DNA from: Geranomyces variabilis
Taxonomy: Eukaryota > Chytridiomycota > Chytridiomycetes > Spizellomycetales > Powellomycetaceae
DNA length: 64,000 nucleotides
Assembly (NCBI GenBank): GCA_027603065.1
Contig: JADGJP010000004.1
Span: 848,180 to 912,179 of the forward strand
Direction of reading: 5' to 3'
Part shown: positions 17,366 to 21,045 of the stretch, piece after piece
Layout: each line of letters begins with the position of its first letter
How positions within the stretch are numbered: the stretch's first letter is position 1
Position numbers and translations under genes: made by a program
Notes under the pieces: generated by a model
Databases searched by the model: none
What the model was told of the DNA's origin: nothing
What the model saw: only the letters and a program-made list of their open reading frames with translations

Positions 17366-18169
17366 GACTTATTTTCTGGTAGCAGTCGGAGTATGAACAG
17401 TGCTGCGGTGAGAAGTTGAACGGCGAGCGAGGGTTGACAGAGAGACGGACAAAGAGAGAGCGAGGCGTGTGTGTGTATATATATATATATATGTAAGGAG
17501 AGTGGAATGCGAACCCCGCAACGGAATGTGGAGCGGGCGGTGGAGACGGGCCGCTCTTTCTTTAATCCATAACACAAGATAGCGAGCGACAAAATGTGCT
17601 CGGGGAAATTTTTTCTTGTCCGTTGCTTGCGCCCGCCCACTGGCAAGTGCCGCGGGAACATTGGAGACTCCGAGAAAACGACAAAAAACCTTCACGTTCG
17701 TCTAATCGTCCGATAAATTGCTCCGCCCGGAGATTTAGCGCCCGCCACGTTGCACATTGAGAAGCGAGGGGGCTTTCCCATCGTACGAGTTAAGAGTTAG
17801 TTACCTTTACGTATGCGTCGTTCCTCCCGCCTTCGCCCCCCGGCTCTCCCCGACTCACTCAGCCCCGTGCCTAACTCCCCTCTTACCCTTGGCCGTCTTG
17901 GACTTGTTCTTTGTCCGATACGTCCCGTACTCCGAGCCTTGCAACAAGAGTGATATCTCGGTACTAACGCGCGCATCCCTTGTACACAACCGACAACGTC
18001 TGCTTACGGTCCAGCCCATGATCCAAGGCAGAAAACGGAAAGAGCTCCACATCCTCTGCTTGTGCGGGCACGTTTTCCCCCCATCTACTTCGTGGAGGAA
18101 CAAGTATCCTTCTGGAAAATTGGTGAGTATGGTTATTTCCGGAAGCAAGATGAACCAGACTTACCATGA
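17366..18169. other. 5' region of the ABC gene and unassigned DNA
   Basis: About 800 bp. The part next to the transporter contains an alternating (TA)n run near 17475-17492. ORFs across 17757-18160 on either strand show no family resemblance and are interrupted by the TIR element to the right. Confidence 0.35.
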
Positions 18170-18171
18170 TA

Positions 18172-18281
18172 CAGCCAGTGGACAAAAGTCGGAGACCCCC
18201 ACCCCCCACAGCCGCCGCGCAGGGCACTCTCTTCCTATGAAATTTTTTTGGCCGGGGTCTCCGACTTTTGTCCTCTGGCTG
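18172..18281. mobile_element. 110-bp TIR element (MITE-like, TA target site)
   Basis: A compact element bounded by 28-bp terminal inverted repeats (18172-18199 and 18254-18281) that differ at one position. The outer end reads CAGCCAG(T or A)GGACAAAAG. It is flanked on both sides by TA (18170-18171 and 18282-18283), the target duplication expected of Tc1/mariner/pogo-type transposases. The 54-bp interior has no coding capacity, so it must be moved in trans. A second copy of the left end lies at 61351. The superfamily is inferred from the TA flanks and the CAG start only. Confidence 0.75.
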
Positions 18282-18283
18282 TA

Positions 18284-18788
18284 TTCCAGAAGACAACAGA
18301 CGATCTCGAGGTTGATCGACTGTGCTCCGAAGGTTTGCAGAATGGCGTGAACACGTCGGCGTGAGCTGAGGAGCTCCTTGATTGTGTGGTACTGGATCGA
18401 GAGCACATTTTGCATGTCAGCGGTTCGTTTCGAATGTCGGGAAACCGGTTTTGCTCCCTCGGAGTGTCGGTCCACGAAATACTTTGTAGAGGTTTCGCCA
18501 CTCTGCCATACAGTCTTCCCAAAACGGTGACATGCTTCCCGGAATATGGGATGAACGTAAGTTTGCAGATGATCTGTCTCGAGACGCTGACAGTTCTTCA
18601 GCGGATTGTTCTCTCTGGTGAACGCACGGCAACTGCAAAATGTGAAGCATTGGTGAGGACTGATCTCTTGTCTCCTCCAGAGCTCTCTCCCATTCATCGG
18701 CTTTTTTTTTTCCCCAATGCTCCGCAAAATTGGTCTTGATGTGAATCTATCTTACCATCGGTAACTCTCTAGACTTCAGCAATCTCTG
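18284..18788 (-). other. Unassigned decayed sequence next to the Fanzor remnant
   Basis: The minus strand is open from 18727 into the TIR element (18161) with no recognisable domain. The frame reads through both TIRs, so its end cannot be an original stop. This is probably chance or relic coding sequence. It may have belonged to the same inserted unit as the Fanzor remnant, but nothing shows this directly. Confidence 0.3.
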
Positions 18789-19206
18789 TCAAGACTCCGC
18801 TCGCATTGGCTTTCGGACAATTGAGCAAAGTCCCACGTTGAATGCGCCAACGTTGTCACGCCGTCCAATAAATCCACACTTCCCACACTTGAAGGCCTTG
18901 CTTGCGCCGATCTTGTGGTAAATAAAGTCTCAGTAGGGGCATTATTTTGTGTTGTATTCCTCGGTCGTGGCAAATCACGTCCTTGACCTCAAGCTGCTGG
19001 CGTTGTTTCCGGACCATCCTAGCCGTCATGAACTCAGGCAAAACAATCATGTCGTATGCTCCGGCCAGATGGTTCGCAAAGGCATTGTATGCCTGAGGCA
19101 CTGTGGGCTTCAAGAGCCTGGTGGTCAAGATTGAGAAGGACGCGTGGGCATGAAACCTCGTGTCAGGGAGTTGACTTTGGCAGGGCTGGCCCCCGAACCC
19201 GAGCAA
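18789..19206 (-). pseudogene. Fanzor (eukaryotic TnpB-like nuclease) C-terminal remnant, broken
   Basis: On the minus strand the region reads, in two frames, the end of a Fanzor/TnpB RNA-guided nuclease. One frame gives the RuvC-II strand AGAYDMIVLPEFMTARMVRK (19030-19056 covers YDMIVLPEF). After a shift, the other frame gives TEEYNTK (18954-18965 covers TEEY), then KIGASKAFKCGKCG (CxxC at about 18873-18890) and RRDNVGAFN, which fits the RuvC-III (R/D)RD.NGARN block. The gene is dead: there are stops inside the first zinc-knuckle half (where TC..CG is expected), the second Cys there reads Tyr, a frameshift lies between the blocks, and the helical stretch normally found between RuvC-II and the zinc finger seems deleted. 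The N-terminal RNA-binding part is not found. It stops at 18789. Confidence 0.72.
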
Positions 19207-19562
19207 CTGAATAATAAATTAAAACAACGCCCGAGCGCCGCCCCTTGTAAAAAAAGAACAAAATAGCGGTTTGGTCAGGGTTCCTATTGAGAAGCGCGCC
19301 GGGCTCCCCCCGACTGTTTTCCGACAGCTCTGTTCGTTGGCGGTGGTGAGAGTAAACAGAGCGATGTTTTTTCGATACCCGAAGGTATTCGGGACCTGAG
19401 GGCCGGGCACTTCTGTCCTCCCTAAACCCTTTCCGAACACCGTAACCTGGCGAGCTTAAAAGCGCAAGGCCGCCGGGAGGCCGCCATCACCAAAAAACGC
19501 AAACGGCGTGCTCCCTTTCCTAAACTCAAACGTTCCGTAAACCCATTCAAAGCAATCGCATC
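19207..19562. other. Promoter side of the repeat-protein gene
   Basis: About 350 bp between the Fanzor remnant and the start of the secreted protein gene. A short minus-strand ORF (19219-19440) has no family resemblance. The last 100 bp presumably carry the promoter of the gene at 19563. Confidence 0.3.
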
Positions 19563-21045
19563 ATGCGTACAAAAATTGCCTCCTGGATTCTGGCAGCTTT
19601 CGTCATTTCTGGTGCCGTCGGCGCTCGCTTGGTACGAAATTTTTTTTTGAAGCTAACCCTGAAGACCCTTACTAACAAACTTTTCTGTTAAATCTTAGCC
19701 TCTCCATGCCCGGCAATATGAGGGTGTCGAAGTCGGCGTTTTGACTGAATCTGGGACAGAGGCGACCGCTGTAGTCCAGGAACCAGAGCCCACGGCCATC
19801 ACCGAGGAATCTTTGCCCTCTGCTACCGATGACATTTTCCCTTCCGTCACCGCCAGTACGGGAGAGTCTCTTCCTACGGCGATCGCCGAATCGGCCACTA
19901 CCGATGTCGAAGAATTTCCTTCCGCCACCGCCAATACCGGAGAGTCTCTTCCTACGGCGATTGCCGAATCGGCCACTACCGATATCGAAGAATTTCCTTC
20001 CGCCACCGCTAATACCGGAGAGTCTCTTCCTACGGCGATCGCCGAATCGGCCACTACCGATATCGAAGAATTTCCTTCCGCCACCGCCAATACCGGAGAG
20101 TCTCCTCCTACGGCGATCGCCGAATCGGCCACTACCAATATCGAAGTATTTCCTTCCGCCACCGCCAATACCGGAGAGTCTCTTCCTACGGCGGTCACTG
20201 AATCGGCCACTATTTTCGTTGAATCCTTACCTTCCGCAACCACTATTATCGAGGACACCTCCTCATCTACTTCAGTAGAAGTGGAATCCATTCCGTCCGC
20301 AACTGCAGCCACGTCGTCCACGGAAAGGATTGGCGTTCTTGAGATCACGACGCCAGCTGCCCCTTCCGCAACCTCCTGCCCATCGGCTGTCACAGTCACT
20401 GTGACTAAAACCGTTTCGCAGGTTTCTCCACCTCGTCCTACTCAGGGGATCAAAGTTCACAAGGTCCCCAGCGCTACCCGAGGTCGCGAGACCCGTCGCC
20501 CTGTTTGCACTACGATCTGCCCGGCCCAGCGCAAAGGTACTCGTCTTCCGAAAATCAAGTCCAAGATCCAGCATAGCGGCATCGGACGCACCAAGCCCCG
20601 CATCGGGAAGACCAAGACACAACCCGGCTCGACCCGCCCGAACGGTAACAAGAAGCCGGCTACGACGACTTCATCCCCCGTAAAGATTCAGGCTGTTGAG
20701 ACGACTCAATCAAGCGTCACGACCACCGCTGTACATACATCAAGCACTTTGCATGTCAGCGCCACGGCCGCTCACCGCACAACGTCTACTGTGACCCACG
20801 CTACTAAGACTGCACTCTCTGAGGCTTTAACCATCCTTGCGGTGCCGACGGTCCACCACACCGCACCGCCCGCGCACGTGACGGTCGCTTCTGTTCATCG
20901 CACCGTCGCAGCGCCGCCAGCCCACCTTACCGTCCCTGTTCACCACACTCCATTGGTAACGGCAACTGCGACGCATTCTGTGGCTCCGTCATCTCCAACG
21001 CACGTCGCGGTGCCAGCGACTCATGTCGCTCCTGCGCCGTATTGA
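19563..21045 (+). CDS. Secreted Ser/Thr-rich repeat protein
   Basis: Exon 1 (19563-19631) encodes a signal peptide, MRTKIASWILAAFVISGAVGA, and the intron falls right after it. Exon 2 (19699-21045) encodes the rest, 471 residues in all. After the leader come five copies of a 26-residue unit (core: ESLPTAIAESATTDIEEFPS), then a Thr/Ser/Pro/Val region. A short basic block around RKGTRLPKIKSKIQ follows, with CTTIC just before it, and the end is His/Pro/Thr/Val-rich (VHHTAPPAHVTV). This composition suits an O-glycosylated wall or matrix protein. There is no hydrophobic C-terminal GPI signal, so it is probably soluble or wall-bound. No enzymatic domain is seen. Confidence 0.75.
19861..20250 (+). 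repeat. Five 78-bp in-frame tandem repeats
   Basis: Units start at 19861, 19939, 20017, 20095 and 20173, exactly 78 bp apart, and each begins GGAGAGTCT. The middle units are nearly identical at the DNA level, including synonymous sites; the last is the most diverged. This points to recent expansion by slippage or unequal exchange. Confidence 0.9.

Follow-up and report, generated by a model that had tools for sequence, protein, structure and literature searches.

A probable remnant of a Fanzor2-type nuclease gene in the chytrid Geranomyces variabilis

The subject of this report is a short stretch of minus-strand DNA in Geranomyces variabilis, which very probably is what remains, in decayed form, of the 3' end of a tnpB gene of Fanzor2 type belonging to an IS607-type mobile element of this chytrid (order Spizellomycetales). 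It lies in a window of 64,000 nucleotides, positions 848180-912179 of contig C34 in a 23.8-Mb assembly of 91 contigs. We favour this reading because of homology, the order of the motifs, the predicted fold of a relative, the recombinase domains that some gene models of the family contain, and the damage that the sequence has suffered. An earlier note on the same DNA had proposed a relic of a Fanzor RNA-guided nuclease; this is supported, and the relatives allow it to be narrowed to the Fanzor2/IS607 type.

Anatomy of the relic

A tblastn search with the G. variabilis protein HDU87_003161 (P0004; 839 residues, marked partial) finds two collinear blocks of a TnpB/Fanzor C-terminus on the minus strand between window positions 19116 and 18813 (Table 1). 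Block A (70.5% identity) scores 66.2 bits in the window and reaches E 2.5e-12 genome-wide; for block B (76.9% identity) the figures are 90.5 bits and E 2.8e-22. Block B is read in a frame other than that of block A and contains two in-frame stops, one of which replaces the second Cys of the first zinc pair and so damages that pair; the alternative RuvC-II Glu pattern E-x6-C-x2-C accordingly retains its Glu and first Cys, with a stop in place of the second Cys. The junction between the blocks fits a loss of about 51 codons together with a net one-base frame change.

Table 1. Parts of the relic in the window
Feature	Position	Strand	Basis
Block A: remnant of helix and RuvC-II strand region (LLKPTVPQAYNAFANHLAGAYDMIVLPEFMTARMVRKQRQQLEV)	18985..19116	-	P0004 residues 686-729, one frame
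Junction, 16 bases where 56 codons are expected	18969..18984	-	Sequence gap and alignment arithmetic
Block B: TEEY motif with alternative Glu, damaged C4 zinc ribbon, RuvC-III RDNVGAFN	18813..18968	-	P0004 residues 786-837

The motifs YDMIVLPEF, TTEEYNTK, CGKC after KIGASKAFK, and RDNVGAFN all stand on the minus strand in the order given by the earlier note. The locus that it had drawn at 18789..19206 is real, but detectable homology begins at 19116 rather than at 19206; the stops and the frameshift that it described are both there, but to these must be added the missing codons between the blocks and the lack of anything matching N-terminal of residue 686. Similarly, the block that it took for the RuvC-II strand, YDMIVLPEF, is present, but the catalytic Glu of Fanzors sits in the TEEY motif and not in LPEF. 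We assign it to the first Glu of TEEY because a passage of PMC10711439 places it six residues from the zinc motif, which we read as E-x6-C.

Upstream of block A, tblastn in the window gives no significant match to P0004 residues 1-685, and the region of the RuvC-I DPG motif is not found at the locus. The alignable part amounts to 96 codons, compared with 480-1258 residues in the gene models of the relatives, and many of the family's nearly invariant columns are retained in it. With residues 1-685 unmatched, some 51 codons gone, two in-frame stops and a one-base shift, the fragment is dead, and no working nuclease can be made from it.

A second, broken copy

A DNA search of the genome finds a single related place, at C5:551176-551384 (L012:4877-5085). 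There, 127 bases at 83% identity run in one direction and directly adjoin 82 bases, also at 83%, running in the other; the two pieces lie head to head, the shorter repeating part of the same stretch, which leaves a broken copy that has also been rearranged. C34 and C5 differ at 22 of the 127 bases, and these sites fall on the three codon positions as 7, 8 and 7 of 42, 43 and 42, a small sample. Such an even spread is as expected in the absence of selection on the protein, and a recent loss, as the earlier note would have it, is therefore unsupported; nor does an alignment of only 96 codons with an internal deletion, two stops and one shift lend it support.

The live relatives that the earlier note thought possible in the same genome were likewise not found as far as the relic's own family is concerned. 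A search with P0004 returned six rows and no intact copy in this assembly: the relic, the broken C5 copy, and weak matches on C11 and C18 that belong to another family. Apparently intact relatives of the relic's family are found in other chytrids. Among the matches listed under low-stringency settings, the only row below E 0.001 away from the two relics is one of P0017 at window 16961-16560 (E 8.7e-5). Nor was a conserved omega-RNA-like 3' end, which the earlier note had suggested looking for, found beside the copies: C34 and C5 cease to resemble each other at the DNA level close to where the reading frame ends, as do C11 and C18, which is weak evidence of absence in copies that are decayed or 70% identical.

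Relatives and the assignment to Fanzor2

When P0004 was compared as a protein query with the 7996 candidates sharing most words, 19 proteins were returned: P0004 itself, 15 relatives (P0005-P0019) at 49-80% identity, P0020 from Amoeboaphelidium (Aphelidiomycota) at 30%, and the TnpB-like P0021 and P0022 at 23-27%. Sources for nine of the 16 proteins P0004-P0019 are Geranomyces variabilis, G. michiganensis, Thoreauomyces humboldtii and Borealophlyctis nickersoniae, all of them chytrids. PF07282 scores above its curated cut-off in 14 of the 16; 13 of them have DPG, and E-x6-C-x2-C occurs in 14. According to PMC10711439, DPG and the alternative Glu in E-x6-C-x2-C are marks of Fanzors and pro-Fanzors.

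PMC3627910 describes some Fanzor2 elements with IS607-like serine recombinases and assigns Fanzor1 to other transposon superfamilies. In the relic's family a Pfam resolvase domain occurs in P0009 (over the cut-off) and in P0014 and P0016 (below it), and P0016 also has a MerR domain; with the NCBI IS607 transposase model NF033518, whose cut-off is 110 bits, P0009 scores 73.2 bits and P0016 57.3 bits among five proteins scanned. The structure model of P0005 predicts a RuvC/TnpB fold, and its top Foldseek match is the mimivirus Fanzor2 9b0l, with the Fanzor1 protein SpuFz first appearing at rank 41. Since most relatives carry DPG and the alternative Glu, a few models include an IS607 recombinase and P0005 is closest to a mimivirus Fanzor2, the family looks Fanzor2-type.

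The nearest known proteins share the collinear blocks with the relic: 71 of 94 compared residues are identical in P0004 and 65 of 94 in P0005 (HDU86_001589, from G. michiganensis; 712 residues), both far longer than the broken relic. In a tree of 20 sequences and 96 columns (P0013, which lacks the region, was excluded) the relic falls outside P0004-P0006 with support 79, on a long branch, a placement on which we do not rely. Among PDB sequences, P0004 is matched best by the mimivirus Fanzor2 (TnpB-like protein L79, PDB 9b0l), at E 5e-5; this protein is viral, and its identity to the P0005 model is 16-18%. SpuFz1 of Spizellomyces punctatus, a Fanzor1, belongs to the same nuclease superfamily and is matched by the P0005 model (9ceu, E 8.7e-5), but is absent from the PDB sequence matches of P0004 at E up to 1. 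Cyanobacterial pro-Fanzor TnpBs, treated in PMC10711439, offer a further comparison: titles name cyanobacteria for 17 of the 19 prokaryotic loci related to A2, and identity is 25-45% over parts of the protein. A scan of viral_contigs with A2 gave 25 pattern matches, none of which was confirmed as a viral relative. A PDB profile search with A1 was set aside: its seven rows include no Fanzor, six of them (best E 0.0013) match positions 1-257 of the 805 in the profile, and the only related nuclease is CasPi (E 0.36).

P0009, P0014 and P0016 are gene models in which a Fanzor2-type nuclease is combined with part of an IS607 recombinase (MerR and/or resolvase). It is conceivable, though rather unlikely, that in chytrids the two form one fused protein through splicing or frameshifting and that the relic comes from the tail end of a gene of this sort; if true, transposition and RNA-guided cutting would be united in one polypeptide. 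The fusions may be gene-prediction artefacts because the recombinase part, by eye, is truncated or seemingly in another frame in several models.

As for function, the intact protein would most likely have been an RNA-guided RuvC endonuclease. It would have bound RNA made from the right end of the element and cut matching DNA beside a short target-adjacent motif, and such cutting would have helped the element to persist once its serine recombinase had moved it.

Weighing the evidence

Several results weigh against reading the locus as a Fanzor2-type gene of an IS607 element. The whole-genome profile search proposed in the earlier note does pick up the relic with PF07282, but as the lowest of seven matches, at 24.2 bits (E 8.9e-4), under the curated cut-off of 26.3 bits; the 46-residue open piece taken alone reaches 19.7 bits (E 9.7e-4). 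In Pfam nothing at E up to 1 matches the longer open frame, the one carrying YDMIVLPEF; among PDB sequences nothing at E up to 10 matches the frame with block A alone, and block B has only insignificant PDB matches, with the Fanzor2 9b0l third at E 0.69. RuvC-I is missing, resolvase domains are found in only three of the 16 relatives, and neither PF00239 nor NF033518 yields a candidate IS607 recombinase in this genome (six frames, introns not modelled). Neither element ends nor a guide-RNA region can be recognised, and the Fanzor2 label is drawn from the relatives. In favour of the identification, the RuvC-II strand, the zinc ribbon (itself damaged) and the RD of RuvC-III are collinear in the relic, and a query of the joined relic pieces (X at stops, 89 of 105 residues scored) retrieves from a large protein set, among 33 candidates, a single protein, P0004, at E 6.4e-33. 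The low Pfam score might suggest that a zinc-ribbon-like stretch without any Fanzor ancestry resembles one by coincidence. However, the two collinear blocks compare with at most 27.7 bits in 100 mononucleotide shuffles of the window (98 of which gave any match at E up to 1000) and with 26.6 bits for the next-best match in the real window, and a second copy exists on C5; the probability of chance is vanishingly small, and we regard it as already refuted. The Fanzor relic is genuine.

Two other histories grant the locus a Fanzor origin. The relic could be a Fanzor1-type fragment captured by a Tc/mariner-like element with terminal inverted repeats (TIRs), as in S. punctatus, whose SPu-1 has 33-bp TIRs and putative TA duplications according to PMC3627910; an inverted-repeat element with TA in its outer ends indeed lies 529 bases downstream of the relic, at 18169-18284, and would then be a non-autonomous relative. 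Its nearness says little, as 40 places were scored in the genome with the window copy included, and a search for inverted repeats of at least 14 bases in 17500-19800 reported only this separate element, the relic being truncated. Whereas SPu-1 bears TIRs, some models of the relic's family bear IS607 domains, and this, together with the fold comparison of P0005, makes a Fanzor1 capture improbable. Less probable still is a shortened exon or regulatory RNA derived from a Fanzor gene and still in use. The relic adjoins a plus-strand open frame (19741-21045) and so is possibly transcribed; against such a use stand the two stops and the frame change, the even divergence from the C5 copy, and the Rfam result for 17800-19800, where only two matches occur, both below the gathering score and outside the relic.

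Neighbourhood of the relic

The element at 18169-18284 is 116 bases long with inverted arms of 31 bases. With 40 places, its own included, scored among 147 genome candidates, it represents a short TIR element of high abundance; its resemblance to MIR6024 is weak (26 bits against 72 in Rfam). On the other side of the relic, window 19741-20399 appears by eye to be a repeated Ser/Thr-rich coding stretch, and no Pfam family matches the 434-residue plus-strand frame mentioned above at E up to 0.001.

Other Fanzor-like loci in the genome

A second, distant Fanzor-like family is present in this genome with long open frames. On C11 (L013:4879-8231) there is a long, mostly open gene with a 550-residue open frame, and residues 1-817 of the 851 of P0003 are matched in three stretches; to judge by this the gene may be near-complete. 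The gene on C18 is that of P0002 (HDU88_003727), all 490 residues of which are accounted for by exact 20-residue matches to locus L003 on C18. The two halves of the P0002 gene are separated by a relative of the window's TIR element (L014:5375-5493, 73% identity), into which the public gene model seems partly to extend. PF07282 also has matches on C44, C45 and C39.

On C13 (124413-126011 plus the stop; L006:205-1806), a frame of 533 residues has an ING-type PHD finger (ING4, E 2.6e-10) ahead of the Fanzor marks DPG and E-x6-C-x2-C, with, by eye, a frame change inside the zinc ribbon. As a query it gives ten genome matches, itself included: C11, two parts of the C18 gene, C7, C38 and C28 over the nuclease end; C42 and C15, where the PHD finger alone is matched; and C18:156110, where the match to a middle part may be unspecific. 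The places C7:124093, C38:120320 and C28:233829 are further Fanzor-like fragments, those on C38 and C28 with an internal stop. We found no paper pairing Fanzor with a PHD finger among the open-licence papers searched. It would be unusual for a Fanzor-like nuclease to carry a domain that reads histone marks, and among the side findings this frame is the one most worth following.

Significance

The locus itself is dead and ordinary, and the kind of nuclease is already known. The open-licence papers searched yielded nothing on Fanzor in Geranomyces, on IS607 in chytrids or on Geranomyces transposons; one of them, PMC10432273, mentions both Fanzor and "chytrid", the latter twice and both times in the reference list. 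What the relic points to is a Fanzor2-type family in chytrids, of which we found no description in the same papers, supplementary files not being covered. Because a protein that appears nearly complete is present in one G. variabilis record, whereas only debris is left in this assembly, the gain and loss of a guided nuclease could be followed within a single species.
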